From a virus, in the IMG/VR virus record IMGVR_UViG_3300030389_002013, positions 1-31,853 of that record: a DNA stretch of 31,853 bases. One strand, given 5' to 3'. Positions within the stretch are counted from its first letter, which is position 1; the number at the start of each line of letters is the position of its first letter. The position numbers and the translations under genes were made by a program. This document shows, piece after piece, positions 1,943-26,539 of the stretch. The notes below the pieces were generated by a model that did not search any database, was not told the origin of the DNA, and saw nothing but the letters and a program-made list of their open reading frames with translations.

Positions 1943-1968
1943 CAAAATATAAGTTAATAAATCGTTAT
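1943..1968 (+). promoter_or_regulatory. Putative phage-sigma promoter P1 (CAAAA-N14-TCGTTAT)
   Basis: CAAAA at 1943-1947 and TCGTTAT at 1962-1968, with 19 nt from box start to box start. The start codon of the 1982 gene is 13 nt after the motif. It is one of six intergenic copies of the same bipartite motif; see the sigma factor at 4973 and the other sites at 8485, 10790, 19555, 21344 and 23566. Confidence 0.6.
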
Positions 1969-1981
1969 ATTTATAAACATT

Positions 1982-2218: not shown

Positions 2219-2619
2219 TGCCTAAAAAACCTAGTAGAAAATATCTAGTAAAAAAATTAGATACCTTATTCTCTTTATATATTAGGTTAAAATCAGCAGA
2301 TAAATATGGTAATGTTAAATGTTATACTTGTAACACTAAAAGACATTATAAGGATTATATGCAATGTGGCCATTTTATATCAAGAAGGCATTATATAACT
2401 AGGTGGAAAGAAACAAATGCAAAACCTCAATGCTACTCTTGTAATGTAGGTAATCAAGGTATGCAATATCAATTTGCTCTAAATCTTAACAAAGAATATG
2501 GCTACGATATAGCCCAAGAATTGTTACAGGAAAGTAAACAATCTGTAAAGTTATCAAATGATGATCTAGTTTCGTTAATAAATAGATATAAAGAATTTAT
2601 TGACTTAATGGATAAATAA
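2218..2619 (+). CDS. NinG-like recombination protein (lambda NinG/Rap family)
   Basis: A 133-residue protein with the NinG zinc-binding layout: CYTC at 35-38, then QCGHFISRRHYITRWKE at 49-65, NAKPQCYSCN with Cys72 and Cys75, then a helical C-terminus. In lambda, NinG (Rap) is linked to recombination and Holliday-type junction cleavage. The family shares the HNH-like Cys/His core, and the conserved CGH plus N-x2-PQC residues are all present. Length is close to the core of the family (lambda NinG is longer at the N-terminus). A terminator follows 45 nt downstream, closing a two-gene operon. Confidence 0.82.
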   Translation: MPKKPSRKYLVKKLDTLFSLYIRLKSADKYGNVKCYTCNTKRHYKDYMQCGHFISRRHYITRWKETNAKPQCYSCNVGNQGMQYQFALNLNKEYGYDIAQELLQESKQSVKLSNDDLVSLINRYKEFIDLMDK

Positions 2620-2663
2620 TTAATTTTGATTAGTTCTGTTCATTTTGTCTTTGGTTTAAAAGA

Positions 2664-2703: not shown

Positions 2704-2733
2704 TTGTTTTTCACAAAAAATTTAATATCTTTA
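2704..2733 (+). promoter_or_regulatory. Sigma-A type promoter of the early operon
   Basis: TTG at 2704-2706, exactly 19 nt, then TATCTTTA at 2726-2733 (one mismatch to TAnnTTTG). The start codon of the first early gene is 27 nt downstream. It lies right after a terminator and ahead of the replication and sigma-factor genes, as expected for a host-recognised early promoter. Confidence 0.6.
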
Positions 2734-2760: not shown

Positions 2761-3066
2761 ATGAACAATCCATTTTTAAATCCTGAAGATATAATATCAG
2801 GTACAGAATCAGGTTATATTATTGAAAAACCTTATCCTGTTCTAAATTTATATGATAGGTTAAAGCCTCAATATAAAATAGCTCTTGATAAGCAAGTAGA
2901 AAACTGGACATCAGCATCTGCTATTAAAGACAAACTTAAAAACACATTAAGTTATATGGATCTCACTATTCTAGATATAAAGGTTTTATATTCTATGATA
3001 GATGTATGGACTACAGATGTAACTGTAGATGATCTTATATATGGTAATAATATTTTTGAAAAATGA
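2761..3066 (+). CDS. Early protein of unknown function
   Basis: A 101-residue acidic protein that opens the early operon. No motif is recognisable to me: there is no signal peptide, membrane segment or cysteine cluster. The predicted content is mostly helix, with tryptophans at 50 and 83. First genes of phage early operons are often host-takeover factors, but there is no direct evidence for that here. It overlaps the next gene by 4 nt (ATGA). Confidence 0.68.
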   Translation: MNNPFLNPEDIISGTESGYIIEKPYPVLNLYDRLKPQYKIALDKQVENWTSASAIKDKLKNTLSYMDLTILDIKVLYSMIDVWTTDVTVDDLIYGNNIFEK

Positions 3067-3251
3067 AACATAAAGATTGGCCATACATAAAAGGAGAGAA
3101 ACAAATCATAGCTTTAACTAAGGCTTATGAATACAATAAAAGAGAAGCAGATAAATATAAATCCCTCTGTAAACAGAAGGATGAGAAAATAGAAGAATTA
3201 ACAATTAAACTTGAAAAACTAAGATATGAATCAGAAATTAGAAACTATTAA
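3063..3251 (+). CDS. Short coiled-coil protein
   Basis: Sixty-two residues. From about residue 18 to the end it is a continuous heptad-like helix rich in Lys and Glu (KREADKYKSLCKQKDEKIEE...). The N-terminus has KDWPYIKGEKQI. It overlaps both the upstream gene (4 nt) and the annealing-protein gene (26 nt). It may be an oligomerising partner of a recombination protein, which is inference from position only. Confidence 0.62.
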   Translation: MKHKDWPYIKGEKQIIALTKAYEYNKREADKYKSLCKQKDEKIEELTIKLEKLRYESEIRNY

Positions 3252-3741
3252 AATAAGAGGTAAAGAGTATGTAATGGTTAATGCACGAATTACATACTTT
3301 AGATCTCATTATCCAAACTATTCTTTAACATCTAAAATTTTAGAACATAAAGAATGGCAAAATAAAAATGATGAAACAGAGTATTCTATACTAATAAAAG
3401 CATCTGTACTTGATGAAAATAATAGAGTAGTTGCAACTGGCTTAGCTCAGGAATATAGTAATAGTACATTTATAAATGAAAAAAGTTATATAGAGAACTG
3501 TGAAACTTCAGCTTGGGGTAGAGCTTTAGGTAATTTAGGTATAGGTTTAAATACTTCAGTAGCATCAGCAGAAGAAGTACAAAATGCTATAGCTAATCAA
3601 AAAGAGGTTCTTAAATTTGATAGTGATAAATATAGAAAGATAGCTGAGAAGTTAAAACAAAATGAAATCACTATAAATAAAGTAGAAGAACATTTTAAGT
3701 TAGATAAATTCACTAAATTAGAGTTACAAAAAATAAATTAA
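3226..3741 (+). CDS. Putative single-strand annealing protein (Rad52/ERF-like)
   Basis: A 171-residue protein with a beta-rich first part (residues 12-80) and the motif NCETSAWGRALGNLGIG at 91-107. A 'E..TSA.GRAL..LG.G' signature is characteristic of Rad52/ERF/DUF1071-type annealing proteins. The C-terminus (about 125-171) is a charged helical tail. Such proteins pair complementary single strands during phage recombination and replication. An SSB gene follows only 4 nt downstream, a pairing common in phages. The family assignment is by motif recall, so the exact subfamily is uncertain. An internal ATG at 3274 is a possible later start. Confidence 0.6.
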   Translation: MNQKLETIKIRGKEYVMVNARITYFRSHYPNYSLTSKILEHKEWQNKNDETEYSILIKASVLDENNRVVATGLAQEYSNSTFINEKSYIENCETSAWGRALGNLGIGLNTSVASAEEVQNAIANQKEVLKFDSDKYRKIAEKLKQNEITINKVEEHFKLDKFTKLELQKIN

Positions 3742-3745
3742 AATT

Positions 3746-4081
3746 ATGAGTAAAAGAATTATTTATGGTAACATATCTCTTAATGTAGAGAAGTTACCCA
3801 AACAGTATTTTGTAAAAACAAAAACTGGTACATTTTTAAATATGGATCTAAGAATAAATTTAGATGATCCTAAAATATTTGATAATGGTGGTAGAAACTT
3901 TGGATCTTTTTCAAAACCTCAAACTGCTGATGAGAGAAAAAATAAAACTCCTAAAGAGTGGTTTAATGGTATCTATCTAGATGTAACTAATATAGCTACA
4001 GTACAGGGAGATAAATTTGAGATTGATAAATCTTGGGCATTTTCAAAAAGTAAAGATACTGAAGAGGCCTTGCCATTCTAA
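3746..4081 (+). CDS. Single-stranded DNA-binding protein (phage SSB)
   Basis: A 111-residue protein ending in EEALPF, the acidic-plus-aromatic tip that SSBs use to recruit partner proteins. The body is short and beta-rich with several aromatic residues (F22, F29, F46, F52, W70, F71, Y75), consistent with an OB fold, and has the motif KTPKEWFNGIYLDVT at 66-80. It follows the annealing protein and precedes a RepA-like ATPase, which fits a replication/recombination set. It is shorter than cellular SSB. A strong terminator follows, so this gene likely ends the first early transcript. Confidence 0.68.
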   Translation: MSKRIIYGNISLNVEKLPKQYFVKTKTGTFLNMDLRINLDDPKIFDNGGRNFGSFSKPQTADERKNKTPKEWFNGIYLDVTNIATVQGDKFEIDKSWAFSKSKDTEEALPF

Positions 4082-4108
4082 GAAAAAGTATAGTTTTTTC
4101 ATTAGTAG

Positions 4109-4144
4109 GAGGGTAAAGATGTATATCTTGCCCTCTTTTTTTTT
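4109..4144 (+). terminator. Strong rho-independent terminator after SSB
   Basis: GAGGGTAAAGAT at 4109-4120 pairs with ATCTTGCCCTC at 4125-4135 around a 4-nt loop (one bulged A, one G-T pair), followed by nine T's. Sequence in this stem could be read as an N-terminal extension of the next gene, which argues against any start before 4155 for that gene. Confidence 0.85.
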
Positions 4145-4154
4145 ATATTTATTT

Positions 4155-4967
4155 ATGCAAACGAACCAAAAGAAAATGCAGCAATTAGAGAAGAGCTGCT
4201 TTATAAGTACATCAGAAGAGTTATCATATCCTCCAGTAGCACTTTCATTAGGAGAAAAATTAATTAAATCTAGTAAAGGAGATCAGCTCTTACCTATTCC
4301 TATATGTACCTACTCAAATATAACAATGGTACAAGCTCCTCCAAAAAGTAAGAAAACATTTTTTATATCCTTACTTGCATCAGTATATCTTAGTGGTAAA
4401 AATAGATTTGGATCTAAGATAAGAGGGCATAGAAATGGAAGATGTTTAATACATTTTGATACAGAGCAAGGTGCTTGGCATACTCAGAGAGTAGCAAAAA
4501 GAATAGTAGATATGAGTGATAAATCTCTAGGATGTTATTATATTTATAGCCTCAGATCTGAGTTTCCAAAAACAAGAATAGAATTTATAGAGTATTGTCT
4601 AAAGACAAAAGATAATATAGGATTAGTTATAATAGATGGTATAGCTGATCTTTGTATGGATGTCAATTCGTTAGAGGAGGCAAACTATACAGTACAGAAA
4701 CTTATGGAATGGAGTGCAAAGTATTGCTGCCATATCATAACAGTTATTCATAGTAACTATGGATCTGAAAAAGCAACTGGCCATCTAGGATCTGCCTTAA
4801 TGAAAAAGGTAGAAACAGAAATACAACTTGAACAGAATACAGTAAACAAAGAATGGATTACAGTTAAATGTAAGAGAAGTAGAAACTACTCTTTTGAAAC
4901 ATTTAGCTTTACAGTAAATGAACTTGGGCTACCTTATGTAAATGATCTATATGATCCTTTAGCATAG
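4155..4967 (+). CDS. RepA/DnaB-like AAA ATPase (AAA_25 type)
   Basis: Counting from the ATG at 4155 the protein has 270 residues. A RecA-like core is visible: a Walker A-like loop APPKSKKTF at 61-69 (non-canonical, with Ser-Lys in place of the usual Gly-Lys), FDTEQ at 101-105, Walker B LVIIDGIADL at 157-166, and the VIHSNYGSEKATGHLG segment at 197-212 typical of RepA/AAA_25 ATPases. It probably acts as a replicative helicase or helicase loader. I chose 4155 because an upstream in-frame start would run through the SSB gene and a terminator hairpin; 4176 is another possible ATG. No DNA polymerase gene is seen, so it must work with host enzymes. Confidence 0.75.
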   Translation: MQTNQKKMQQLEKSCFISTSEELSYPPVALSLGEKLIKSSKGDQLLPIPICTYSNITMVQAPPKSKKTFFISLLASVYLSGKNRFGSKIRGHRNGRCLIHFDTEQGAWHTQRVAKRIVDMSDKSLGCYYIYSLRSEFPKTRIEFIEYCLKTKDNIGLVIIDGIADLCMDVNSLEEANYTVQKLMEWSAKYCCHIITVIHSNYGSEKATGHLGSALMKKVETEIQLEQNTVNKEWITVKCKRSRNYSFETFSFTVNELGLPYVNDLYDPLA

Positions 4968-4972
4968 AGCTT

Positions 4973-5452
4973 ATGAGTAAAAAATATATGGAATTGTTAT
5001 TCCAAAAAAATAATGACTGGATTGAGATCTGTAAATCCTTTGGTTTAGATGAAGAAACTGCTAAGGATCTTACTCAGGAGATGTATATAAAAATCCAACT
5101 AAAAATAGAGAATGACAAATTAGATATATCTTATAATGATGAGATAAACTATTACTATATATTTAAAACTCTTAGAAGTATGTTTATAGATCTGTATAGG
5201 AAAAAAAAGAAAGTAACAATAGTAAGAAACCTAACTGAATATAAGAAATCTGATACTTATGTTAATTATGATGATAAGTATAAACAGATACAGGATCAGC
5301 TAGATAAAATGTATTGGTATAATAAAAAGGTATTTGAGATAGTAAACTCAGGTACATCAATAGCAGAATTATCTAGGAAATCAGGAATACCTTATTACTC
5401 TCTTTACAATACATATAAAAAAGTGGTAGATAAATTAAAACAAATAATATGA
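4973..5452 (+). CDS. ECF-like RNA polymerase sigma factor
   Basis: A 159-residue protein with the layout of a minimal sigma-70 family (ECF) factor. A region 2-like part spans about 7-80: acidic helix with DEETAKDLTQEMYIKIQ (compare the DL.QE.F.K. signature), then an aromatic/basic helix YYYIFKTLRSMFIDLYRKKKK that fits regions 2.3/2.4. After a linker, a region 4-like helix-turn-helix covers 105-157, with SIAELSRKSGIPYYSLYNTY as the recognition unit. There is no region 1 or 3. It would redirect host RNA polymerase to phage promoters. The likely target is the CAAA/TCGTTAT motif found before virion operons; this link is inference. The downstream gene overlaps by 4 nt. Confidence 0.75.
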   Translation: MSKKYMELLFQKNNDWIEICKSFGLDEETAKDLTQEMYIKIQLKIENDKLDISYNDEINYYYIFKTLRSMFIDLYRKKKKVTIVRNLTEYKKSDTYVNYDDKYKQIQDQLDKMYWYNKKVFEIVNSGTSIAELSRKSGIPYYSLYNTYKKVVDKLKQII

Positions 5453-5607
5453 AACTTGGAGATCTTACTGAAAAAATAATAAGTGTAATCACATTTGGGC
5501 AGGGTAAAAGAATAGCATCTTGGATAGCAAACAAACTAGGGTTTTCTAGTTGTGGGTGTGAGGAAAGAAAACAAAGCCTGAATAAAATTAAAATAAAAAG
5601 ATGGTAG
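5449..5607 (+). CDS. Small conserved phage protein with a CGC motif
   Basis: Fifty-two residues: MKLGDLTEKIISVITFG, a helix around 20-32, then CGCEERKQSLNK at 35-46. The 'CGC-acidic-x-R-K/Q' ending is familiar from small phage proteins in many marine genomes. It may bind a metal through Cys35 and Cys37. It overlaps the sigma factor (ATGA) and the next gene (7 nt), so it is in the same operon. Function unknown. Confidence 0.65.
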   Translation: MKLGDLTEKIISVITFGQGKRIASWIANKLGFSSCGCEERKQSLNKIKIKRW

Positions 5608-5813
5608 TTAAATTTAATAAAGATGATAGAAAAAAATGGGAAAAATTTAGAATGGGTAAAAAATCATTCTTATCAAGAGATGAATTTCAAATGGTATCAG
5701 AGCTGCACTCATCCTACTACAACCATAGCTTTTACTTACCTTGCACCTGTAATCCAAAACAAATCCAACAATGGATAAAAGACTTGAATAAGATTTGGGA
5801 TAATGGAGATTAG
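5601..5813 (+). CDS. Small conserved phage protein (PCTCNPK motif)
   Basis: Seventy residues: a basic N-terminus (KFNKDDRKKWEKFRMGKKS), then VSELHSSYYNHSF, PCTCNPKQIQQWIKDLN and a short tail. The 'LH..YY.H.F..PCTC.PK.I..WI..LN' pattern is one I recall from marine phages. Cys48 and Cys50 with His residues could bind zinc. It overlaps both neighbours by about ten bases. Function unknown. Confidence 0.68.
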   Translation: MVVKFNKDDRKKWEKFRMGKKSFLSRDEFQMVSELHSSYYNHSFYLPCTCNPKQIQQWIKDLNKIWDNGD

Positions 5814-6219
5814 TGAGGTACATAAATGGGAAAGGGCAGTAACTATGCTGCTTAATGTTTTGGGATGGGATCTTGAATGGGTAGGTAAAGAGGATAAGAG
5901 TTGGGATGCTGAAGGATATAGTATGTATAACAGAAAGGTAGTTATAGAGATGAAGTTTAGAGATAAATACTATGAAGAAAAACTACTTGAGAAATATAAG
6001 TATGATAAACTTATGGAGCTACCTGATGACATTATTAAGATATATTTTGTAAATGATCCTAAAGCTAATTATATGTTTTGGTTAGATAAGATAGATATGC
6101 CTGAACCTACTGAATTATATTGCCCTTCTACTACTATTTGGAATAGTAAAAAGATAAAAAAGCAAGTATATCTCCTGAAAGAAAATATGGCCTCTAGAAT
6201 AAACTTGAATACTAATTAA
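5803..6219 (+). CDS. Putative PD-(D/E)XK nuclease
   Basis: A 138-residue protein with the core of a PD-(D/E)XK enzyme: a conserved acidic residue at Asp35 (SWDAEGY), a beta strand, and the E-x-K pair at Glu49 and Lys51 (VVIEMKFRDKY). An N-terminal helix includes KWERAVTMLLNVLGW. The size and surroundings (recombination and replication genes) suggest a resolvase or a VRR-NUC-like nuclease, but the exact family cannot be read from the sequence alone. It overlaps the previous gene by 11 nt and ends the operon segment that starts with the ATPase. Confidence 0.6.
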   Translation: MEISEVHKWERAVTMLLNVLGWDLEWVGKEDKSWDAEGYSMYNRKVVIEMKFRDKYYEEKLLEKYKYDKLMELPDDIIKIYFVNDPKANYMFWLDKIDMPEPTELYCPSTTIWNSKKIKKQVYLLKENMASRINLNTN

Positions 6220-6231
6220 ATTATTTGTTAA

Positions 6232-6239
6232 TAATTTTG
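6232..6239 (+). promoter_or_regulatory. Candidate -7 box (TAATTTTG)
   Basis: Matches TAnnTTTG in the short gap before the 6260 gene. The nearest TTG (6205-6207) is 24 nt upstream instead of 18-19, so promoter function is doubtful. Confidence 0.3.
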
Positions 6240-6259
6240 TATCTTGTAAAGAAAAAATT

Positions 6260-6373
6260 ATGGCAATAAGTAATGAAACATTTGAATACTTTAGAAAAAA
6301 AGAAAAGAAAAGAATCAGAAAGGAAAAGATAAAGCTGATAGAAAAGCAGATAAAACTTTTAAAAAAGCAATGA
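6260..6373 (+). CDS. Tiny lysine-rich helical protein
   Basis: Thirty-seven residues: MAISNETFEYFRKKEKKRI followed by an uninterrupted Lys/Ile/Leu/Glu helix ending in KKQ. It fills the gap before the next gene and overlaps its ATG (ATGA). The amphipathic, basic character suggests nucleic acid or protein binding, but no family is recognised. Confidence 0.55.
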   Translation: MAISNETFEYFRKKEKKRIRKEKIKLIEKQIKLLKKQ

Positions 6374-6591
6374 ATTATTTACAATATCTAAATGAGAACT
6401 ATTTTAGAGAAAAAGGATATATAAAAATGCAAAGCAAAATAGACAAAGTTAAAGTAGATAAGCCTAGACAATATAGAAGTAGGCAGGGTAGATCTGATAA
6501 AAAATATACAGAAACTATGAAACTTACCTGCTTTAGTATTATAGGATTATTACTAACATTATTATATATCATATATGACAATATTATTTGA
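6370..6591 (+). CDS. Small protein with a C-terminal membrane anchor
   Basis: Seventy-three residues. The first 48 are basic and polar (including KPRQYRSRQGRSDKKY); residues 50-72 form a hydrophobic segment (MKLTCFSIIGLLLTLLYIIY). The topology would put the basic head in the cytoplasm. A later ATG at 6427 is also possible. It overlaps the exonuclease gene by 17 nt. It could tether DNA or replication proteins to the membrane, which is only a guess from charge and topology. Confidence 0.58.
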   Translation: MNYLQYLNENYFREKGYIKMQSKIDKVKVDKPRQYRSRQGRSDKKYTETMKLTCFSIIGLLLTLLYIIYDNII

Positions 6592-7285
6592 TGCAGATTC
6601 ACTTATATTTGCTAGTTGTTATAGAACTAGAATAGATGGAGAAAAACCTGATGATATATATTATAGAGATATTAAAGATGCTCAAGATAAATATTCAGAG
6701 CAATTTATGAAGATTATAAATGATATAGATGAGATTTTTGATGTAAAAAATGTAATAACATTCTCAGGATCTTCAGGTAATTTTAGAAAGATGATTACTC
6801 CTACATATAAGGCAAATAGAAAAAAACAAGAGAAACCTCCTCTACTTTATGAGCTGCATCAGTTTGTAAAAGACACTTATAATAGTGTACATACTAAAGG
6901 ACTAGAAACAGATGATCTTGTAGCTCAACAATGGAATAAAATAAAGAATGATTCAGGTAGAGATCAGGTACTAATAGTTTCAATAGATAAAGACTATAAA
7001 CAATTCCCTGCACTTATATATAATTATGTAAGGAAAGAAGTATATGATATAACAGAAGATCAGGCCTTGTATAATTTCTATGAGCAATGTATTGTAGGAG
7101 ATTCTGCTGATAATGTAAACTACTTCAAGGGTAAGGGTAAGGCCTTTGCAAAGAAATATTATGAAGGATGTAAAAGTCAATATCAATATACCAAAAGATT
7201 ATATGAATTATTCAAACAAGAATACAAGAGCAAAGCCAAAGAAAAATTTTCAGAATGTTATCATTTATTAAAATTAAGAATATGA
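6575..7285 (+). CDS. 5'-3' exonuclease / flap endonuclease (FEN, PIN-like)
   Basis: A 236-residue enzyme with the acidic clusters of T5/T7-type 5' nucleases in order: DADSL (Asp6, Asp8), FRKMITPTYKANRKK at 70-84 (the helical arch with basic residues), ETDD at 111-114, SIDKDYKQFP at 136-145, and GDSADNVNYFKGKGKAFAKK at 175-194 (the metal-binding Asp plus the DNA-binding helix-hairpin-helix). It removes RNA primers and flaps or resects DNA ends for recombination. With no phage polymerase present it would complement host replication. The length matches stand-alone phage enzymes with a short C-terminal part. It overlaps the next gene by 4 nt. Confidence 0.88.
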   Translation: MTILFDADSLIFASCYRTRIDGEKPDDIYYRDIKDAQDKYSEQFMKIINDIDEIFDVKNVITFSGSSGNFRKMITPTYKANRKKQEKPPLLYELHQFVKDTYNSVHTKGLETDDLVAQQWNKIKNDSGRDQVLIVSIDKDYKQFPALIYNYVRKEVYDITEDQALYNFYEQCIVGDSADNVNYFKGKGKAFAKKYYEGCKSQYQYTKRLYELFKQEYKSKAKEKFSECYHLLKLRI

Positions 7286-7740
7286 AGGCAATAGATATAG
7301 CTAATAAAATCTCTGAATTATCAGGATTAGATCTCTTTGAGAAATCAAGGAAACAGAATATAATAGAACATAGAGGATTACTATGTTACATACTTAGAGA
7401 TAAACTAAAAATGAGATGGCAAAAGATGGAGAAGTTTTACAGATCTCAAGGATGGCCTGTAAATCACGCAACCTTAATAAACAGTTATAGGAAGTGGTAT
7501 ATATATAAGACAAATCAAGATGTTATAAACATTCTTAACCAGTTTCAGTTTGAAGAGGAGGATCAGGATCAGATAGATAAAGTAGAGATGTTAGAAACTA
7601 AATGCACTAATCTCAAAAAGAAATTAGAAGATCCTTTAGTAAAACTTGTAACAGATATTCCTGAAAACAAAAAAGAACAAGTAAAAGAGAAGATAGATAT
7701 GATGAAAAAGGAATGGGAGTGGAAAGAAAAAGTATTATGA
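7282..7740 (+). CDS. DnaA domain IV-like DNA-binding protein
   Basis: A 152-residue protein starting at the ATG that overlaps the exonuclease stop (an upstream in-frame ATG at 7255 would lie inside that gene). Residues 22-72 resemble the helix-turn-helix domain of DnaA: SRKQNIIEHRGLLCYILRD and then NHATLINSYRKW, the counterpart of the DnaA DHTTV signature. The rest is a charged coiled-coil tail (about 95-152). It lacks the ATPase domain, so it would bind DnaA-box-like sites, perhaps as an initiator or a regulator. This type of protein is common in Bacteroidota phages. Confidence 0.68.
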   Translation: MKAIDIANKISELSGLDLFEKSRKQNIIEHRGLLCYILRDKLKMRWQKMEKFYRSQGWPVNHATLINSYRKWYIYKTNQDVINILNQFQFEEEDQDQIDKVEMLETKCTNLKKKLEDPLVKLVTDIPENKKEQVKEKIDMMKKEWEWKEKVL

Positions 7741-8165
7741 ACACTCAACAAATAAAATTATTTCAGAGCAAAAAAACTGATGATTGGCAAACTCCTCAAT
7801 GGTTGTATGATGAGTTGAATGATGAATTTGATTTTGATTTTGATCCTTGTCCACTAAATTCTACTTTTGATGGTTTGTTATGTGATTGGGGAAAAAGAAA
7901 TTTTATAAATCCTCCTTATAGTAATGTAAAAGGATTTTTGAAAAAAGCTCACAAAGAATTAGAAAATGGTAATGCTGATATTTGTGTATTTTTAACTTTT
8001 GCTAATACAGATACAAAATGGTTTCACGATTACTGCTATAAACAAGCAGAAATAAGATTTATAAAAGGTAGGCTTAAATTTTTAGATGCAACTGGTAAAG
8101 TAAAAAATAGTGCAATGAGGCCAAGTATAGTTTTAATTTTTAGGAATGGAGAAAAACAAATATAA
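7737..8165 (+). CDS. Phage N6-adenine DNA methyltransferase (Dam-type)
   Basis: A 142-residue enzyme read from the ATG overlapping the previous stop. It has the order typical of the phage Dam family (PF05869-like): DDWQTPQWLYDEL at 15-27, DPCP at 36-39 and the catalytic NPPY at 58-61, followed by KGFLKKAHKEL and a C-terminal RPSIVLIFR strand. It should transfer a methyl group to adenine in a short target. GATC, the usual Dam target, is frequent in most of this genome, but whether GATC is this enzyme's target is not shown. Likely purpose: protection from host restriction. Confidence 0.85.
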   Translation: MNTQQIKLFQSKKTDDWQTPQWLYDELNDEFDFDFDPCPLNSTFDGLLCDWGKRNFINPPYSNVKGFLKKAHKELENGNADICVFLTFANTDTKWFHDYCYKQAEIRFIKGRLKFLDATGKVKNSAMRPSIVLIFRNGEKQI

Positions 8166-8496
8166 AAGAAAACAGATACCCATATATACAGGATTGATAA
8201 AATACTTTCCAAAAGCACTTGCTGAAGTTGCTAGAGTATCTTATACAGGTAATCAGCAGCATCATCCTGATAAACCATTGCATTGGGATAGGGCAAAGAG
8301 TACAGATGAGCTAGATGCTCTTACTAGGCATTTGTTTGAGGCAGGAGAAATAGATACTGATGGTATGAGGCACTCTGCTAAAGTAGCTTGGAGAGCATTG
8401 GCCAATCTAGAAAAAGAACTTGAAAACTCAAGGGATGATAAGTGGTATAAAGAACAGTATAACAGAAATAGAGATCCTGAAGATCAAATCAAGTAA
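8146..8496 (+). CDS. dATP/dGTP pyrophosphohydrolase-like protein (DUF5664)
   Basis: A 116-residue protein with the pattern YFPKALAEVARVSYTGN, HWDRAKSTDELDALTRHL, GEIDTDGMRHSAKVAWRAL. The spaced acidic and His residues (E62-D64, H73, H87) match the MazG-like fold family DUF5664 that hydrolyses dATP/dGTP. In some phages related enzymes (MazZ) serve base-Z genomes, but no PurZ-type synthetase is seen here, so nucleotide pool control is the safer reading. It overlaps the methylase gene by 20 nt. The first half of a putative phage-sigma promoter lies in its last codons. Confidence 0.7.
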   Translation: MEKNKYKRKQIPIYTGLIKYFPKALAEVARVSYTGNQQHHPDKPLHWDRAKSTDELDALTRHLFEAGEIDTDGMRHSAKVAWRALANLEKELENSRDDKWYKEQYNRNRDPEDQIK

Positions 8497-8509
8497 TTTT
8501 TTTCGTTAT
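8485..8509 (+). promoter_or_regulatory. Putative phage-sigma promoter P2 before terminase
   Basis: CAAAT at 8485-8489 and TCGTTAT at 8503-8509, 18 nt from box start to box start. The terminase start codon is 29 nt after the motif, the longest leader among the six intergenic sites. Confidence 0.58.
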
Positions 8510-8538
8510 ATTTTTGATTAATCAAAGTTTTTCAAAAT

Positions 8539-8778
8539 ATGAAAGTAGAAAATAGAGGAGGTAAAAGAAAGGGAGCAGGTAGAAAACCTAAATCTGAAGA
8601 GTTAAATCTTATTGAGAAATTAACTCCATTAGAGCCATTGGCCTTTGAAGCATTAGAGGCAGGATTAAAAAAAGGAGATTTCAAATATGTTCAACTCTAT
8701 TATAATTATTATGCAGGTAGGCCTAAAGAAACTAAAGATATTCACATAAACGAAGATCTGCCTATATTCATAGATTAA
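8539..8778 (+). CDS. Terminase small subunit (TerS)
   Basis: A 79-residue protein with a basic start (NRGGKRKGAGRKPKSEE), the hallmark N-terminus of many phage small terminases, then LTPLEPLAFEALEAGLKKGD, an amphipathic helix region, and YYNYYAGRPKE before an acidic end. It should bind the packaging site and load the large subunit. It is shorter than typical TerS proteins (100-200 residues). It overlaps the large terminase by one base (TAATG), as TerS genes commonly do. No separate DNA-binding helix-turn-helix is obvious. Confidence 0.72.
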   Translation: MKVENRGGKRKGAGRKPKSEELNLIEKLTPLEPLAFEALEAGLKKGDFKYVQLYYNYYAGRPKETKDIHINEDLPIFID

Positions 8779-9947
8779 TGCAAATTCAAAAAACCTTAGC
8801 ACTCCAAAAACTAAGAAAGCTACAGAATAGAATAAAGATAATCAGAGGAGGATCTTCAGCAGGTAAGACAATAGCTATATTACTAATCCTTATAGACTAT
8901 GCAATAAGAAACAAAGGATCTGAGATAAGTGTGGTATCAGAGAGTGTACCTCATCTTCGTAGAGGAGCTTTAAAAGACTTTCTAAACATCCTGAAGGCCT
9001 TGAATAGGTATGATGAGAGAAAGTACAATAGAAGTACCTTAAAATACGAATTTCATAATGGTAGTTATTTAGAGTTCTTTAGTACAGATCAGCCTGATAA
9101 ACTTAGAGGAGCTAGAAGGTCGGATTTATTTTTAAATGAGTGCAATAATGTAACCTTTGATTCCTATCAGCAATTAGCAATAAGAACCTCCAATAATATA
9201 TGGCTTGATTATAATCCTACTAATTTATTTTGGGTAGATAAAGAACTGATAGGCCAAGATGATACAGACTTCCTTACACTTACTTATAAGGACAATGATA
9301 GCCTCCCTGAATCAATAGTAAGAGAAATAGAGAAAGCTAAAGACAAAGCTAAGACATCTACATACTGGGCAAACTGGTGGAAGGTATATGGACTTGGAGA
9401 GATAGGTAGCTTAGAAGGAGCTTGTATTCCTGACTGGAAATCAATAGATAAAATACCTGATGATGCTAGGTTACTTTGTGGAGGCCTTGATTTTGGCTAT
9501 AGTGTAGATCCCTCAGTTATCATAAACCTCTATAAGTGGAATGATGCTTATATCTTTGATGAGATCCTATATCGTAAAGGAATGTTAAATAGAGATATAA
9601 GTTATTTCATAAGACAAAATAATATAAGCTATAATATATATGCAGATTCTGCTGAACCTAAATCTATACAAGAACTTAGAAACTATGGCCATAAAGTATT
9701 CCCTGTAACTAAGGGTAGAGATTCTGTAGTCTATGGTATAAACCTAATAAACCAAAATGAGATATATATCACTTCAAGATCTAAGAATCTAATAAGGGAG
9801 CTGCAAGGATATGTATGGGATAAAGACAAAGAAGGGAATAATCTACAGAAACCTACAGGCCTTCATCCTGACTGTATTGATGCTTGTAGATATGCTTTAA
9901 TGATGGAATTACAAAATCCAAACAGAGGTAGATACATAATTAGATAA
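8778..9947 (+). CDS. Terminase large subunit (TerL)
   Basis: A 389-residue packaging motor. ATPase part: Walker A GGSSAGKT at 24-31 and Walker B with its catalytic glutamate at LFLNE 117-121. Nuclease part (RNase H fold): GGLDFGYSVDP with Asp238, YADSAEPK with Asp290, and HPDCIDACRYALM with Asp365/Asp368. This matches the PBSX-like Terminase_3 family. It cuts concatemeric DNA and pumps it into the prohead. Length is usual for the family. The portal gene it must dock to is about 14 kb away, an unusual separation. Confidence 0.95.
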   Translation: MQIQKTLALQKLRKLQNRIKIIRGGSSAGKTIAILLILIDYAIRNKGSEISVVSESVPHLRRGALKDFLNILKALNRYDERKYNRSTLKYEFHNGSYLEFFSTDQPDKLRGARRSDLFLNECNNVTFDSYQQLAIRTSNNIWLDYNPTNLFWVDKELIGQDDTDFLTLTYKDNDSLPESIVREIEKAKDKAKTSTYWANWWKVYGLGEIGSLEGACIPDWKSIDKIPDDARLLCGGLDFGYSVDPSVIINLYKWNDAYIFDEILYRKGMLNRDISYFIRQNNISYNIYADSAEPKSIQELRNYGHKVFPVTKGRDSVVYGINLINQNEIYITSRSKNLIRELQGYVWDKDKEGNNLQKPTGLHPDCIDACRYALMMELQNPNRGRYIIR

Positions 9948-9963
9948 AAAAGTTATTAAATAT

Positions 9964-9994
9964 TTTGTGGATAAGTTATAAATACTTATATTTG
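9964..9994 (+). promoter_or_regulatory. Sigma-A type promoter
   Basis: TTTG at 9964-9967, a 19-nt spacer and a perfect TATATTTG at 9987-9994. This is the best match to the Bacteroidota consensus in the window. The next start codon is 25 nt after the -7 box. Confidence 0.7.
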
Positions 9995-10019
9995 AATAAT
10001 ATTAATTAAAACTAAAATT

Positions 10020-10187
10020 ATGAAAAAATGTATTTTATGTAACGAAGAGTTTACAGGGTGGGGGCATAATCCTGCTCCTCTTGCAGAACCTCATTTTAAA
10101 TGTTGCTCAGTATGTAACGATATTAGAGTTATCCCTTACAGGATATATCAATTATCTCAATCTAAAAAAGTGAATAATGTCAATTAA
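10020..10187 (+). CDS. Small zinc-ribbon-like protein
   Basis: Fifty-five residues with Cys4-x2-Cys7 and Cys28-Cys29-x2-Cys32, spaced like a four-cysteine zinc site, plus GWGHNPAPLAE between them and CNDIRVIPYRI after. This small family ('C..C...G.G.N..P......CC..CN...V.P.R') is widespread in marine phages and bacteria, always unnamed as far as I recall. It has its own sigma-A-like promoter and overlaps the next gene by 11 nt. A regulatory or nucleic acid-binding role is plausible but unproven. Confidence 0.72.
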   Translation: MKKCILCNEEFTGWGHNPAPLAEPHFKCCSVCNDIRVIPYRIYQLSQSKKVNNVN

Positions 10188-10362
10188 AGCAACTGTAAAC
10201 TTGATAGAAGTAAATGATAGAATAAAACCTATCACTAGGGAGTTTGATAATGAAAGGCATATATATCATTTCAAAAATCACGCAATAAATTATTGGCCTA
10301 ATATTAAAGGCCTTGATAGTGTTGTAGATGATAAAGGTAATGATATAACAAAGGATATATAA
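10177..10362 (+). CDS. Small protein of unknown function
   Basis: Sixty-one residues, mixed charge, with HIYHFKNHAINYWPNIKGLDS in the middle (28-48). There are no cysteines, signal or membrane segments. It overlaps the zinc-ribbon gene by 11 nt and is likely translated with it. No named family is recognised. Confidence 0.62.
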   Translation: MSIKATVNLIEVNDRIKPITREFDNERHIYHFKNHAINYWPNIKGLDSVVDDKGNDITKDI

Positions 10363-10381
10363 TTATTTATTATATTTAAGT

Positions 10382-10687
10382 ATGATCTTAGACAAAATAA
10401 CAAACTTAAAAGATATGTACTATTATTCAAATCAAGAATTATGTAGAGGTCTTATAAGTAAGTGGAGAAAAATGAAACCTGATAACAAGGAGCTTAAACT
10501 TCTTGATGATAACCTTTTAGAAATCACTCTTTATGTGGTAGGGTTACATAGAGATAATGAGTTTCATAAAATAGCAATGAGTGATTATAGAGAAAGACTA
10601 AACAAAAAAGATTTAGAATTACAGGAGCTGAAAGAGAAATATGATAAGTTGGAAAAAGATTATAAAAAAGACTTTGAAACCACTTAG
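10382..10687 (+). CDS. Coiled-coil protein of unknown function
   Basis: A 101-residue protein. The first half is a compact helical region with LCRGLISKWRKMKPDNK, the second (about 62-100) a regular Lys/Glu/Leu coiled coil. The start is 19 nt after the previous stop, with an imperfect -7-like box (TATATTTA) in between. It ends the small-gene block between terminase and the tail module; a strong hairpin terminator follows. Confidence 0.65.
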   Translation: MILDKITNLKDMYYYSNQELCRGLISKWRKMKPDNKELKLLDDNLLEITLYVVGLHRDNEFHKIAMSDYRERLNKKDLELQELKEKYDKLEKDYKKDFETT

Positions 10688-10728
10688 ATTTTTCATAGAG
10701 TAGTTTTGTTAATTTGGTTAGTTTGGAT

Positions 10729-10786
10729 AGTAGGCAGAGGTACAATTTGCAAGTGGTTTGTGTATCTCTAGCCTACTTTTTTTTTT
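10729..10786 (+). terminator. Long-stem terminator before the tail operon
   Basis: AGTAGGC at 10729-10735 pairs with GCCTACT at 10771-10777. AGAGGTACA at 10736-10744 then pairs with TGTATCTCT at 10761-10769, with one bulged A and a 16-nt loop, and about ten T's follow. The stem of 16 pairs is unusually long. A TAGTTTTG box at 10701-10708 lies just upstream, so a short RNA of roughly 70 nt could be made here. Confidence 0.8.
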
Positions 10787-10789
10787 AAA

Positions 10790-10814
10790 TAAAATGTTAA
10801 ATTAAATTCGTTAT
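10790..10814 (+). promoter_or_regulatory. Putative phage-sigma promoter P3 before the tail module
   Basis: TAAAAT at 10790-10795 (variant of CAAAAT) and TCGTTAT at 10808-10814, 18 nt box to box. The start codon follows after only 6 nt, so the mRNA would be nearly leaderless. It lies immediately after the terminator T-run. Confidence 0.55.
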
Positions 10815-10820
10815 AATAAT

Positions 10821-11471
10821 ATGAAAATCAAGGTAAACATTCCTCAGAGCTTAGATGATGTTACTCTCAGGGATTATAAACACTTCTTGAAGATACAAGA
10901 AAACAATGAAGATGGAAGATTTGTAAAGGCCAAGATGCTTGAGATCTTCTGTAAGATAGGATTGAAAGAAGTATATAGAATGAAGTATAAGGATTCAGAG
11001 GAGGTGCTATCTATACTAGAGAAAACCTTTAATGATAAACCTTCTTTGGTTAGAAAATTTAAACTGGGTAAAACTCAATATGGATTCCATCCTCAACTAG
11101 ATGATCTTACTTTTGGAGAGTATATAGATCTAGATACATATATTGGAGATTGGGATAATATTGAAAAAGCAATGAATGTACTGTACAGGCCTATAATTAC
11201 AAGTATAGGAGAGAAGTATGCTATAGATGAATACAATACAGAGAATGATAAGTATTTACTTGATATGCCTATGAGTGCAGTAACTTCATCCATTTTTTTT
11301 TTGATGAAACTAGGAGCAGATTTATCAAATCATATCCTGAAATCTTTGGAGAAGGACAACGAGGAGATCTATCAGCAGTTTCTAACTTTGGAAAAAAATG
11401 GGGATGGTATCAGTCAATTTGGGCTTTATGTGGATCAGACATTACAAAAATTGAACATATCACTAAACTAA
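10821..11471 (+). CDS. Tail assembly chaperone, short form
   Basis: A 216-residue protein, the zero-frame product of what looks like a G/GT-type tail chaperone locus. It contains LTFGEYIDLDTYIGDW (around 96-111), EKAMNVLYRPI, FFLMKLGADLSNHIL and the end segment NGDGISQFG. These patterns are familiar from Bacteroidota phage proteins located before tail genes. A second open frame overlaps its 3' end in the -1 frame, and the tape measure lies downstream, both as expected for the chaperone that coats the tape measure during tail assembly. The family call rests on recall and on the frameshift layout. It starts 6 nt after putative promoter P3. Confidence 0.68.
   Translation: MKIKVNIPQSLDDVTLRDYKHFLKIQENNEDGRFVKAKMLEIFCKIGLKEVYRMKYKDSEEVLSILEKTFNDKPSLVRKFKLGKTQYGFHPQLDDLTFGEYIDLDTYIGDWDNIEKAMNVLYRPIITSIGEKYAIDEYNTENDKYLLDMPMSAVTSSIFFLMKLGADLSNHILKSLEKDNEEIYQQFLTLEKNGDGISQFGLYVDQTLQKLNISLN
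11393..11399 (+). promoter_or_regulatory. Candidate -1 frameshift slippery site A AAA AAT
   Basis: In the zero frame the sequence reads as the heptamer A-AAA-AAT, the X-XXY-YYZ pattern of -1 sites, inside a run of seven A's at 11392-11398. An alternative site is the ten-T run at 11293-11302 (T-TTT-TTG). Both lie where the zero and -1 frames are open together. Confidence 0.5.
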
Positions 11472-12025: not shown

Positions 12026-12337
12026 ATGGAACTCTCAGAAAACTCAAAACTAACACTAGACCTCAAAACTATAGGAGTAATAATATTCTTTACAATATCA
12101 CTTGCTGCTACATACTTTACCTTATCCTCTTCTGTAGCACAAAACTCTTCTGATGTAGAAGATCTTAAAATAAATTCAGTAAATCCCATAGAGTTCCAAT
12201 ATAAAGATGAGCTTGTAAGATCTACAGTACAAAGATTAGAAGAGAAACAAGATGTATTATCAGAGGATATAAATGAAATAAAAGAAAATCTTAAAAAGAT
12301 AGATGAGAGGTTATATCAAATAAGTAAGGGAAGATGA
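12026..12337 (+). CDS. Membrane-anchored coiled-coil protein
   Basis: A 103-residue protein with one transmembrane segment at about 14-35 and a long coiled coil at 65-100 (RLEEKQDVLSEDINEIKENL). The N-terminal charge and the lack of a cleavage site suggest an inner-membrane anchor with the coil in the periplasm. It overlaps the next gene, which encodes a secreted protein, by 4 nt. A spanin-like or envelope role is conceivable; it is odd to find it among tail genes. Confidence 0.62.
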   Translation: MELSENSKLTLDLKTIGVIIFFTISLAATYFTLSSSVAQNSSDVEDLKINSVNPIEFQYKDELVRSTVQRLEEKQDVLSEDINEIKENLKKIDERLYQISKGR

Positions 12338-19554: not shown

Positions 19555-19579
19555 CAAAATATAATTTTAAACTCGTTAT
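19555..19579 (+). promoter_or_regulatory. Putative phage-sigma promoter P4 before the head module
   Basis: CAAAAT at 19555-19560 and TCGTTAT at 19573-19579, exactly 18 nt box to box. The start codon follows after 6 nt. The motif fills the only gap between tape measure and protease genes. Confidence 0.6.
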
Positions 19580-19585
19580 TTAATT

Positions 19586-21193
19586 ATGAAGATAGTAGAA
19601 TTAGTCTTAGATGAAGATCAAGAAGTAACAGGAGTTGAGGCAATCTCAATAGTAGAAAATCCTGCAATAGAAGAAGATTTTATAGCTCTTAAAGATCAAG
19701 AGATTAGATTAGCTGAAATAGACAAAGAGAAAAAAATATTGATGGGTGCTTTATTAGTACCTAACAAACCAATATACAGAAAAAATAAAGATGGAGAATA
19801 TTATATATATTTTTCAAAAGAAACAATAGAAAAAGCCTCTCAGCTATATTTAAAAAAAGGACATCAAAGTAATTCTACCTTAGAACATAATCACGAAATC
19901 AATGGCCTTACTTTAGTAGAAAGTTGGATAGTAGAAGATGAGAAACTAGACAAATCAAGAAAGTATGGATTTGATGTACCTGTAGGTACTTGGATGGGAT
20001 CTGTAAAAGTAGATAATGATGATGTATGGAATGAATATGTAAAAACTGGTAAAGTAAAAGGTTTCAGTATTGAAGGATATTTTGCAGATAAAATGGATGT
20101 ACCAAAAAGCAATAAAGATGAACTTGCAAAAATAGAAGAAGAAGAAGCAGAGTATATGCTTAATATTATAAAAGGCATAATTAAAGATGATGCAAGATTT
20201 AAAAATGGTAAGAATTTAGTTTTAGAAAGTTTTTCAGATTATCCTGATGCAGTAAAGAATAATGCAAAGAGAGGAATAGATCTTAATAAAAAAGTAAATA
20301 ATAAATGTGCTACAGATGTCGGTAAAATAAGAGCATCTCAATTAGCTCAAGGTAAGCCTATAAGTGAACAAACAATAAAGAGGATGTATTCATTTTTGTC
20401 AAGAGCAGAAGAATACTATAATGCAGATGATAAGGAGGCCTGTGGCACTATATCTTATTTACTATGGGGAGGCCTAGCTGCTAAGAGATGGAGTGAGGCA
20501 AAACTTAAAAAACTAGGTAAACTAGAATTATATAGCCAAGTGGTAAATGATGAGTTTGCTATTATTGATGATAGACTAGCTTATTCTACAGAAGAGAAAG
20601 CCAAAGAGATGGCTAGAAATATTGGATGTGAAGGAATACACGAACACGAACTAGAAGATAAAACTTGGTATATGCCTTGCGAGTTTCATATTAAGGATGA
20701 TATGAGTAAGCATAAAAAATGTCCTATGGGATATAAAAAAAAGGATGGTAAGTGTGTAAGAGAAAGAGATAATTATGCAGAAGTAGGAGAAAGAGGAGGT
20801 ATTAGAAAAAGTCCTAAAGCTCCTAAATCAGATACTCCTAATCCAAATCCAAAAGGCAAAGGAACTGCAAAAGGAGATGCCTCAACAAGTAGAGGAGCAA
20901 AAGTATCAAAAGCTGATGAAGCTACTTTACAAAAAAAGGCAGATGACTTTAATAAAAGATATAAAGATAAATTAGGATATGGTGTTACAGTAGGCCAACT
21001 TAAATCAGTATTTCAAAGAGGTTTAGGTGCTTTCAATGTTTCACATTCTCCTAAAATTAAATCAGCATCAGCTTGGGCATTTGCAAGAGTTAATGCTTAT
21101 ATGTATTTGGTAAAAAATGGTAGGCCTCAGAATCCTAAATATAAATCGGATAATGATTTACTACCTAAAAAACATCCTAAAAGTGGTAAATAA
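19586..21193 (+). CDS. Prohead protease (XkdF-like) in a multidomain protein
   Basis: A 535-residue protein. Residues 1-172 match the XkdF-like protease family: KKILMGALLVPNKPIYR, STLEHNHEINGLTLVESW with His101, GTWMGSV, and KGFSIEGYF with Ser161; His101 and Ser161 are the likely catalytic pair. Further parts follow: a conserved region at about 205-310 (KNAKRGIDL, SFLSRAEEYY), a CEGIHEHE/WYMPCEFH module at about 335-370, a Cys-containing KKCPMGYKKKDGKCV loop, and a basic C-terminal domain (about 405-535) with SASAWAFARVNAYMYLV. The protease probably matures the capsid; the extra modules may be co-packaged or cleaved off. Much longer than a plain XkdF protease. Confidence 0.75.
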   Translation: MKIVELVLDEDQEVTGVEAISIVENPAIEEDFIALKDQEIRLAEIDKEKKILMGALLVPNKPIYRKNKDGEYYIYFSKETIEKASQLYLKKGHQSNSTLEHNHEINGLTLVESWIVEDEKLDKSRKYGFDVPVGTWMGSVKVDNDDVWNEYVKTGKVKGFSIEGYFADKMDVPKSNKDELAKIEEEEAEYMLNIIKGIIKDDARFKNGKNLVLESFSDYPDAVKNNAKRGIDLNKKVNNKCATDVGKIRASQLAQGKPISEQTIKRMYSFLSRAEEYYNADDKEACGTISYLLWGGLAAKRWSEAKLKKLGKLELYSQVVNDEFAIIDDRLAYSTEEKAKEMARNIGCEGIHEHELEDKTWYMPCEFHIKDDMSKHKKCPMGYKKKDGKCVRERDNYAEVGERGGIRKSPKAPKSDTPNPNPKGKGTAKGDASTSRGAKVSKADEATLQKKADDFNKRYKDKLGYGVTVGQLKSVFQRGLGAFNVSHSPKIKSASAWAFARVNAYMYLVKNGRPQNPKYKSDNDLLPKKHPKSGK

Positions 21194-21996: not shown

Positions 21997-22911
21997 ATGG
22001 CTTTAAGTATAACAAGTAATTATGCAGGTCAATGGGCAGGTAAATATATAGCTGCTGCATTGTTATCAGGCGATACAATCGCAAAAGGTGGTATAGAAGT
22101 ATTGCCTAATATTAAATATAAAGAAAACATCAGCAAGATGGCAGTATCAGGTATTATTGCTAATGCTAGTTGTGATTTCACATCAGCAGGTAATATAGCT
22201 CTTACTGAAAGAGTTTTACAACCTGAAGAGTTCCAAGTAAACAATGAGTTTTGTTTAACTCCATTTGTAAGTTCTTGGGAAGCAGCAGAGCTAGGATTTT
22301 CAGCTTATGAAAAAATGCCTAAGAAATTTAGTGATTTTCTAATTGCAGAAGTAGCTGCTCAAGTAGCACAAAAAACTGAGCAATCTATTTGGAATGGTGC
22401 TAATGGTAATGCAGGAGAGTTTGATGGTTTTGTAACATTATTCAAAGCAGATTCAGATGTTTCTGATATTTCAGGTACTACTGTAACTTCTGCTAATGTA
22501 ATTGCAGAAATTGGTAAAGTAGTAGATGCTTGTCCTTCTGCTTTATATGGTAAAGAAGATTTATACTTGTATGTATCTAAAAATGTAGCAAAGGCATATA
22601 TCAGAGCTTTAGCTGCTCAAGGTGGTGGATATGAGAATAGAGTTAATATGTGGTATTCAATGGATCAGCCACTAACTTTTGATGGTATCAGTATTTTCCT
22701 AGCACAGGGATTAAATGATAATCAAATGGTACTAGCTCAAAAATCTAACCTATACTTTGGTACAGGACTATTATCAGATCATAACTTAGTAAAAACTCTA
22801 GATATGGCTGATTTAGATGGATCACAAAATGTAAGAGTAATTATGAGATTTACTTCAGGAATCCAGTATGGATTTGGTAGTGAAGTAGTTTTATACGATC
22901 CTACAGTATAA
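21997..22911 (+). CDS. Major capsid protein
   Basis: A 304-residue protein of the size and style of HK97-fold capsids. It has a short N-arm, CDFTSAGNIALTERVLQPEEF, an acidic helix EAAELGFSAYEKMPKKFSDF (spine-helix candidate), SIWNGANGNAGEFDGFVTL, and a beta-rich end with LYFGTGLLSDHNLVKTLDM. It lies between the scaffold and a terminator, preceded by an A-rich leader without Shine-Dalgarno, as usual for highly expressed Bacteroidota genes. Expected to be the most abundant virion protein. Confidence 0.85.
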   Translation: MALSITSNYAGQWAGKYIAAALLSGDTIAKGGIEVLPNIKYKENISKMAVSGIIANASCDFTSAGNIALTERVLQPEEFQVNNEFCLTPFVSSWEAAELGFSAYEKMPKKFSDFLIAEVAAQVAQKTEQSIWNGANGNAGEFDGFVTLFKADSDVSDISGTTVTSANVIAEIGKVVDACPSALYGKEDLYLYVSKNVAKAYIRALAAQGGGYENRVNMWYSMDQPLTFDGISIFLAQGLNDNQMVLAQKSNLYFGTGLLSDHNLVKTLDMADLDGSQNVRVIMRFTSGIQYGFGSEVVLYDPTV

Positions 22912-23565: not shown

Positions 23566-23590
23566 CAAATTAAATTAATTAATTCGTTAT
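23566..23590 (+). promoter_or_regulatory. Putative phage-sigma promoter P6 before the portal operon
   Basis: CAAAT at 23566-23570 and TCGTTAT at 23584-23590, 18 nt box to box. The start codon follows after 7 nt. The terminator just upstream means a new start is needed here, which supports promoter function. Confidence 0.62.
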
Positions 23591-23597
23591 ATAAGCA

Positions 23598-24041
23598 ATG
23601 ATAGTAATAAACACATCTGCAAGTCAATCATTTAAAGTTATTCCAAGAGAATATTTAACTGCATTTAACATAGAAGTTAGAGATAACTTACTAAACACAA
23701 AATTTACTTTCTTTGAAGATACAGTTAGTACAAGTGGAGATTATATGCAGTTTACAAATAGTTATGTAGATGGTAGTGGTAATACAATATTTAAAGAAGC
23801 AAGATATTATGATTTTGATCTATTTGCAGATTTTAATTTTTGGAATATGAATTTAAGTTTGTGGGAAATGTATGATGAGATTTGGCAAACAGATAGCAAC
23901 CAAAAAGAGAGAATTTATAAAGATAGGTTATTTGTAACAGATCAAGATATTGACCAACTAAATGACAATGACCATTATAATATTAACAAGGATGTATATA
24001 TCACAAATGATTCTTACAATAATGAGTATATTGTAATATGA
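23598..24041 (+). CDS. Conserved structural protein of unknown role
   Basis: A 147-residue acidic protein, beta-rich in the first half, with FDLFADFNFWNMNLSLWEMYDEIW around 74-97 and IYKDRLFVTDQDIDQLNDNDHYNINKD after it. The aromatic/acidic core and the 'IYKDR.FVT.Q.ID' segment are familiar from flavophages. It heads the portal operon and overlaps the portal gene by 4 nt. Probably a virion or connector component. Confidence 0.6.
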   Translation: MIVINTSASQSFKVIPREYLTAFNIEVRDNLLNTKFTFFEDTVSTSGDYMQFTNSYVDGSGNTIFKEARYYDFDLFADFNFWNMNLSLWEMYDEIWQTDSNQKERIYKDRLFVTDQDIDQLNDNDHYNINKDVYITNDSYNNEYIVI

Positions 24042-26435: not shown

Positions 26436-26539
26436 AATATAAACCAAAAAAAAATAATATAGAGAAGTTAAAAACTTTTTTGAATGAGAAAAAGAATAAA
26501 AATATAAAAAATACAAATGGCAAGTTTATTAAACACTAA
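26432..26539 (+). CDS. Tiny lysine/asparagine-rich protein
   Basis: Thirty-five codons starting at the ATGA overlap with the connector and running 23 nt into the fibre gene. The peptide is MKYKPKKNNIEKLKTF followed by a Lys/Asn repeat. The overlaps on both sides favour a translated frame that may couple translation of connector and fibre; a protein function is uncertain. Confidence 0.45.
   Translation: MKYKPKKNNIEKLKTFLNEKKNKNIKNTNGKFIKH

Follow-up and report, generated by a model that had tools for sequence, protein, structure and literature searches.

This locus raises the question of whether a small open reading frame (ORF) in the early region of a marine virus encodes the factor that turns on its packaging and virion genes. 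The window analysed here is the whole virus record of 31,853 bases, which has a G+C content of 30.5%, carries nearly all of its genes on the plus strand and comes from a marine virus whose host group is the flavobacteria. The first-pass annotation had proposed that the ORF encodes a minimal sigma factor, made from an early operon, that recognizes a TCGTTAT motif upstream of virion genes. The following layout is based on ORFs and on matches to protein families:

2761-8496, plus strand: early operon that includes the putative sigma factor gene
4119-4964, same direction as the sigma gene: AAA_25 protein gene, upstream of it
4973-5452, plus strand: putative ECF-like sigma factor gene, 159 amino acids, ATG start (ORF, weak Pfam Sigma70_r2 match and AlphaFold2 model)
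5449-5607 and 5601-5813: small ORFs downstream of the sigma gene
6575-7285, same direction as the sigma gene: exonuclease gene, downstream of it
8778-9947, plus strand: TerL
19586-21193, plus strand: head protease
21997-22911: virion structural or capsid protein
24038-25918: portal
26517-31727: tail fibre

Besides the AAA_25 ATPase, the sigma gene and the exonuclease, the early operon encodes relatives of an annealing protein and of a dATP/dGTP hydrolase. The placement of the sigma gene in an early operon holds, given that the co-directional operon starting at 2761 contains ORF 4973-5452. Holin and endolysin genes are also identifiable in the window, and two holin-like ORFs lie far apart (1134-1532 and 12026-12337; phrog_3427 strong, phrog_1296 weak).

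The Pfam family Sigma70_r2 matches residues 18-80 of the window protein with an E-value of 0.0046 and a score of 17.2, under the gathering score of 24, and reaches an E-value of 0.01 or lower in 14 of 36 relatives (best 1.4e-4). No region 4 profile match was found in Pfam for the window protein or its relatives, and a PDB sequence search with the protein or with a profile returned no useful match. The alignment of the relatives contains a region 2.1/2.2-like stretch (AEDLVQEMYIKI) and a helix-turn-helix (SRKSGIPYYSLYNTYKKV). The AlphaFold2 model has two domains and is mostly helical (mean pLDDT 80.7), with an overall pTM of 0.46 and an unsure orientation of the domains. The top Foldseek matches of this model in the PDB are ECF sigma factors (Mycobacterium tuberculosis SigL complexes, RpoE, AlgU and SigH; best E-value 6e-4), and a VIA comparison with ECF sigma factors gave Z-scores of 8-10. 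Region 2 of the model superposes on the N-terminal fragment of SigR (1h3l) with an rmsd of 2.3 A over 71 residues, and its region 4 fits the -35 DNA-bound region 4 of E. coli SigE (2h27) with an rmsd of 1.8 A over 63 residues. Fold matches among viral proteins (BFVD) are largely phage proteins named Sigma70-ECF, including the sigma-like protein of Nonlabens phage P12024S; the fold also weakly matches the GAP52 ECF sigma factor (E-value 0.15). The two predicted domains are encoded as follows:

5000-5212, plus strand: predicted sigma region 2 (approximately residues 10-80), in which residues 60-77 form the helix that would read the -10 element (1h3l match and alignment with M. tuberculosis SigH)
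5261-5449, plus strand: predicted sigma region 4, residues 97-159, with the -35 binding helix-turn-helix (2h27 match)

In the model, the protein consists of regions 2 and 4 alone with a linker between them, in less than about 200 amino acids, as in ECF (group 4) sigma factors. A sigma factor with only these two regions is what had been proposed, with structure prediction suggested as a check; the best PDB matches of the model are indeed ECF sigma factors, and its fold resembles SigE and SigR. The model thus points to ORF 4973-5452 as an ECF-type (group 4) phage sigma factor predicted to bind core polymerase, an assignment that we hold with high confidence as part of the whole explanation, promoters and switch included. 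Pattern-matched relatives of the protein are encoded by at least 545 stretches in IMG/VR, and none was found, prophage or bacterial, in the bacterial genome contigs searched, which fits virulent phages.

TCGTTAT occurs eight times in the window where 0.73 copies are expected, a number reached in none of 100 shuffles. Five copies lie on the plus strand just upstream of genes (1962, 8503, 10808, 19573 and 23584). The others are at 12002 (minus strand, within a gene) and at 25525 and 26058 (within plus-strand ORFs), and these last two copies count against the promoter reading. The match becomes far stronger when a -35 part is added (AAAAT, whose AAA occupies -18 to -16 counted from the C): AAA-N15-CGTTAT has seven matches in the window against 0.11 expected, five of them before genes, one within ORF 25923-26435 and one on the minus strand. 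The genes that follow the five sites are terminase, a conserved 216-amino-acid ORF, protease/capsid, portal and NinG. TCGTTAT would be the visible part of a predicted bipartite ECF-like promoter, AAAAT-N13-(A/T)CGTTATA. The earlier observation of TCGTTAT copies before virion genes therefore stands in its count and placement, with its extent revised: the leading T lies outside the invariant core, the trailing A is nearly invariant (97-100%), and the -35 part AAAAT had been missed. The exact 7-mer was rejected as the signal, its first position being A in many relatives. The five candidate late promoters are:

1945-1969, plus strand: predicted late promoter of ORF 1982 and the NinG-like nuclease, AAA-N15-CGTTATA, predicted +1 at 1975
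8486-8510, plus strand: predicted late promoter of the terminase operon (ORF 8539, TerL 8778), predicted +1 at 8516, 23-nt leader
10791-10815, plus strand: predicted late promoter of the conserved 216-amino-acid ORF 10821, predicted +1 at the A of the ATG
19556-19580, plus strand: predicted late promoter of the head protease/capsid operon (ORF 19586), -10 element CGTTATT, predicted +1 at the A of the ATG
23567-23591, plus strand: predicted late promoter of ORF 23598 and the portal gene, predicted +1 one base 5' of the ATG

The spacing of the first of these is kept in several relatives, and sites orthologous to the second are present in relatives. The match within ORF 25923-26435 (26041-26064) is a full AAA-N15-CGTTAT located shortly 5' of the tail fibre gene, and may be an internal promoter or a chance occurrence. 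The terminase leader (8516-8539) contains an AT-rich palindrome, TTGATTAATCAA, and the orthologous leaders of relatives have the similar GATTGAATAATCAA and GATTAATTAATTAAT; this palindrome is possibly an operator or a packaging site. An over-represented 10-mer, ATCACGATGG, was rejected as a regulatory motif, as it repeats within the coding sequence of the tail fibre gene, where repeats resembling TATCACGATGG (27433-30680) are probably a coding repeat as well.

We oriented the contigs of 25 relatives by the sigma gene, giving 26 contigs with the window. The core CGTTATA is enriched in plus-strand intergenic DNA in nearly all 25 relatives, and an alignment of 119 sites shows a second block, CAAAAT, with its AAA at -18 to -16. 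Across the 26 contigs, CGTTAT is by far the commonest intergenic hexamer among its 120 permuted forms (121 occurrences against a median of 13), and these permutations, together with the shuffles, rule out chance or composition as the source of the motif. AAA is found at exactly -18 to -16 in 103 of the 109 intergenic sites that have a gene start at most 120 nt downstream. Grouped by the gap between CGTTAT and the ATG, this spacing is kept in 68 of 68 sites with a gap of 4-7 nt, 17 of 19 with 8-17 nt and 18 of 22 with 27-120 nt; its persistence in the long-leader sites indicates that the -35 element is fixed relative to the -10 element and not to the ATG. The spacing peak is absent on the opposite strand and only faint in coding DNA. 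Stringent -35/-10 promoters with rigid spacing, as expected for ECF sigma factors, are therefore found here, and they are assigned to the sigma protein through covariation. Operons differ in how far the ATG lies from the C of CGTTAT: 12 nt for the 216-amino-acid ORF in all 21 relatives holding the site, 12-14 nt for the protease/capsid operon in nearly all relatives, 13 nt for the portal operon in most, 35 nt or more for the terminase operon, and 19 nt for the NinG operon in the nearer relatives of the window.

The link between protein and motif was addressed first through co-occurrence. Fifteen contigs were chosen by their portal protein; the sigma gene is present in each of the five that reach at least 28 kb, and the six contigs without it are all fragments of 15-26 kb. 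The 26-kb contig without the gene lacks the early region altogether, since it begins only some 150 bases ahead of its first late promoter. Relatives that keep the motif and lack the gene, which had been named as grounds for abandoning the link, are not seen among these five long contigs. The most divergent sigma lineages have no CGTTATA and carry a different -10 element at the same position:

CGATATA: lineage of the G032 type
TTATATA: lineage of the G035 type
CTATTTA: lineage whose sigma factor is 31% identical to that of G035
CGTTAAT: lineage of the P12024S type

One relative with a TTATATA-class sigma factor, G036 (IMGVR_UViG_3300017727_000149, L291/L292), has a second, divergent sigma-like ORF in a 185-amino-acid frame (oriented 7626-8183), and some relatives may run a two-sigma cascade. 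G032 contains a roughly 3.8-kb repeat (oriented 4029-7362 and 7818-11151) that takes in part of the capsid and the portal region; ORF lengths are equal in both copies, and the repeat is either a real duplication or an assembly artefact.

Trees were compared on the same 79 contigs with four motif classes (CGTTATA, CGATATA, TTATATA and CTATTTA; the P12024S type was left out), assigned with priority given to a CGTTAT match and with a strict offset, under which no contig was mixed. The motif class needs to change three times on the sigma tree, which is the minimum, four times on the tree of the downstream 216-amino-acid gene and six times on the TerL tree. TerL of G032, a CGATATA genome, is 79% identical to that of the window, whereas TerL of CGTTATA genomes can be as little as 27% identical to it; the motif thus follows the sigma gene. 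Covariation of regions 2 and 4 with the motif, which had been suggested as a further check, is found in five sigma lineages. Between classes 1 to 3, identity is 61-75% in the region 4.2 helix, with the -35 element AAAAT kept, and 35-52% in region 2.3/2.4, with a differing -10 element.

Class 1 is separated from classes 2 and 3 only by alignment columns 40, 44 and 69. Column 69 changes from S or T (once each W and N) to G and aligns with SigH N88; column 73 changes from D to N in class 3 only and aligns with SigH N92. The residue numbers of the M. tuberculosis SigH sequence in this alignment agree with those published (PMC6411747), where N88 contacts base -10 and N92 contacts base -11. In the phage motifs, the base aligned to SigH -10 goes from T to A and the base at -11 goes from G to T. 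Since a single ancestral change may underlie both class 2 and class 3, this match of residues and bases rests on one or two events, and it is suggestive only that switching residues 69 and 73 may set the switching -10 bases. This covariation of residues and bases does not extend to the CTATTTA (fourth) class, which has N at column 69 despite an A at the third base, in a poorly aligned part.

From this evidence the phage sigma factor very probably redirects the host polymerase to the matching promoters at packaging and virion genes. The best surviving alternative is that a host ECF sigma factor reads the promoters and the phage sigma-like protein has some other role. Flavobacteria do have several ECF factors, but the motif class agrees fully with the phage sigma tree and poorly with that of TerL, the sigma gene is present in every portal-selected contig of at least 28 kb, and the switching residues align with base-contacting ones; we regard this alternative as improbable. 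The protein could also resemble a sigma factor yet act as a DNA-binding regulator or co-activator dependent on the host sigma-A, with the motif as its operator. The weak Pfam scores and the purely predicted core binding leave room for such a role, which is nevertheless very improbable given the presence of both sigma domains, the ECF-promoter geometry of the motif and the pyrimidine-purine step at the predicted +1. Shine-Dalgarno sequences are absent from Bacteroidetes, and the motif lies 6-7 nt before the ATG at most sites, as a ribosome-binding element would; even so, there is scarcely any chance that it is a translation or mRNA-stability element 5' of start codons and not a promoter, an option excluded by the AAA being fixed relative to CGTTAT and not to the ATG in long-leader sites (18 of 22 sites whose ATG follows at 27-120 nt) and opposed by the variation of the motif sequence with the sigma factor.

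The flavobacterial sigma-A box is TAnnTTTG (PMC9723704), and sites of the form TTG-N17-20-TAnnTTTG are found at the early operon in the window and in relatives. In the window the candidates are:

2600-2628, plus strand: host-type (Bacteroidetes sigma-A) promoter candidate of the early operon, TTG-N18-TAatTTTG
2704-2733, plus strand: second host-type promoter candidate, TTG-N19-TATCTTTA, with one mismatch in the -7 box

The host-type promoter reported earlier at 2704-2733 is plausible, although 2600-2628 is the better sigma-A match; further matches to the sigma-A form are at 77-105 and 9965-9994. In the proposed mechanism, the sigma factor would be produced from the early operon under these sigma-A-type promoters, bind the host core RNA polymerase and send it to AAAAT-N13-(A/T)CGTTATA promoters before the packaging and virion operons, with region 4 reading the -35 element AAAAT and region 2 melting and reading the -10 element. 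The outcome would be a self-contained early-to-late switch. We consider it highly likely that a phage ECF sigma factor from the early operon directs the host core polymerase to bipartite late promoters; fold, motif, spacing, conservation and covariation were computed, and we infer from them core binding, promoter use, timing, start site and the link between sigma factor and motif.

In SigH promoters, the -10 element has G at -11, T at -10 and T at -9 relative to +1 (PMC6411747), and this numbering applied to CGTTATA puts +1 at 12 nt after the C. Among 106 promoters with a -35 element, the ATG is at exactly 12 nt in 44 and at 13 nt in 22. Of the distinct sites with the ATG elsewhere, 17 of 18 have a purine at the predicted +1 and 15 of 18 have T at -1, a pattern typical of start sites. 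Transcription would therefore begin on the A of the ATG or on the preceding base at most capsid, portal and 216-amino-acid-ORF operons, and the prediction for many late mRNAs is a leader that is absent or almost absent; a start 1-3 nt further upstream would instead give very short leaders. Leaderless mRNAs make up only 5.5% in Flavobacterium psychrophilum (PMC9723704), which makes leaderless late mRNAs a definite and unusual prediction. More broadly, we lean towards the view that marine flavobacterial phages of a large and for the most part uncultured group express late genes through a phage ECF sigma factor that starts transcription at the start codon. Late mRNAs, those for capsid and portal included, would then be systematically leaderless, in hosts where this holds for only about 5% of mRNAs, and no fewer than five lineages would have evolved their own pairing of sigma factor and -10 element at shared gene positions, with the geometry kept.

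These results suggest a concrete switch to late gene expression in a group of ocean viruses that is widespread and known almost solely from metagenomes, and the motif provides a means of predicting their late operons. The five natural sigma/-10 pairs at orthologous sites form a data set on change of -10 specificity with constant -35 recognition. If starts do fall on the ATG, these phages would be a viral model of leaderless translation in Bacteroidetes.

The nearest cultured relative of the sigma protein is gp33 of Nonlabens phage P12024S (25% identical). In the Inhavirus phages, P12024S gp33 and P12024L gp35 are homologous 159-amino-acid proteins encoded upstream of TerL, and the P12024S portal protein is 38% identical to that of the window. 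P12024S has its own motif with the same 12-nt distance; its -10 element, CGTTAAT, and its -35 element, AAAACAAA, are unlike those of the window. The gp33 annotation, a hypothetical protein with Sigma-70 region 2, is the sole such annotation that we met for the flavobacterial group.

T4 gp55 is a phage late sigma-family protein without region 4 that acts with gp33 and gp45 on late promoters without a -35 element. The window protein is likewise a phage-encoded sigma-family protein for late genes, by prediction, but it has a predicted region 4 and its candidate promoters have a -35 element. Among bacterial factors, the closest likeness is to M. tuberculosis SigH and E. coli SigE (PMC6411747), which have regions 2 and 4 only and rigid spacing, and the G-11 T-10 T-9 of the SigH -10 element matches CGTTATA. 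The window sigma factor differs in being phage-borne, in its -35 element (AAAAT instead of GGAACA), and in residues 69 (S/T instead of N88) and 73 (D instead of N92). The gene of a cognate anti-sigma factor often, though not always, lies close to that of an ECF sigma factor.

The first-pass annotation did not recall a self-contained switch being described for such phages. In principle it is not novel: for phiEco32 gp36 and 7-11 gp47, experiments have shown a role as phage late sigma factors working with the host core polymerase at phage-specific late promoters (PMC8948821), and the general strategy is thus already known. A tblastn search of the window protein against 50,697 phage records gave no match to either protein. 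The 7-11 late promoters are bipartite (GTAAtg-16-aCTA), with starts 6-9 nt from the element, and those of phiEco32 have one element only; leaderless late mRNA is not mentioned in that paper (PMC8948821). The systems share a phage sigma factor, late promoters before virion genes and host-type early promoters, recognized in the window by sequence only, and they differ in promoter sequence, host phylum and phage type. For this flavobacterial phage group, no description of such a switch or promoters was found in the literature covered, with most subscription journals outside the search. What is new here is the covariation of sigma factor and promoter over five lineages, together with the predicted leaderless late mRNAs.
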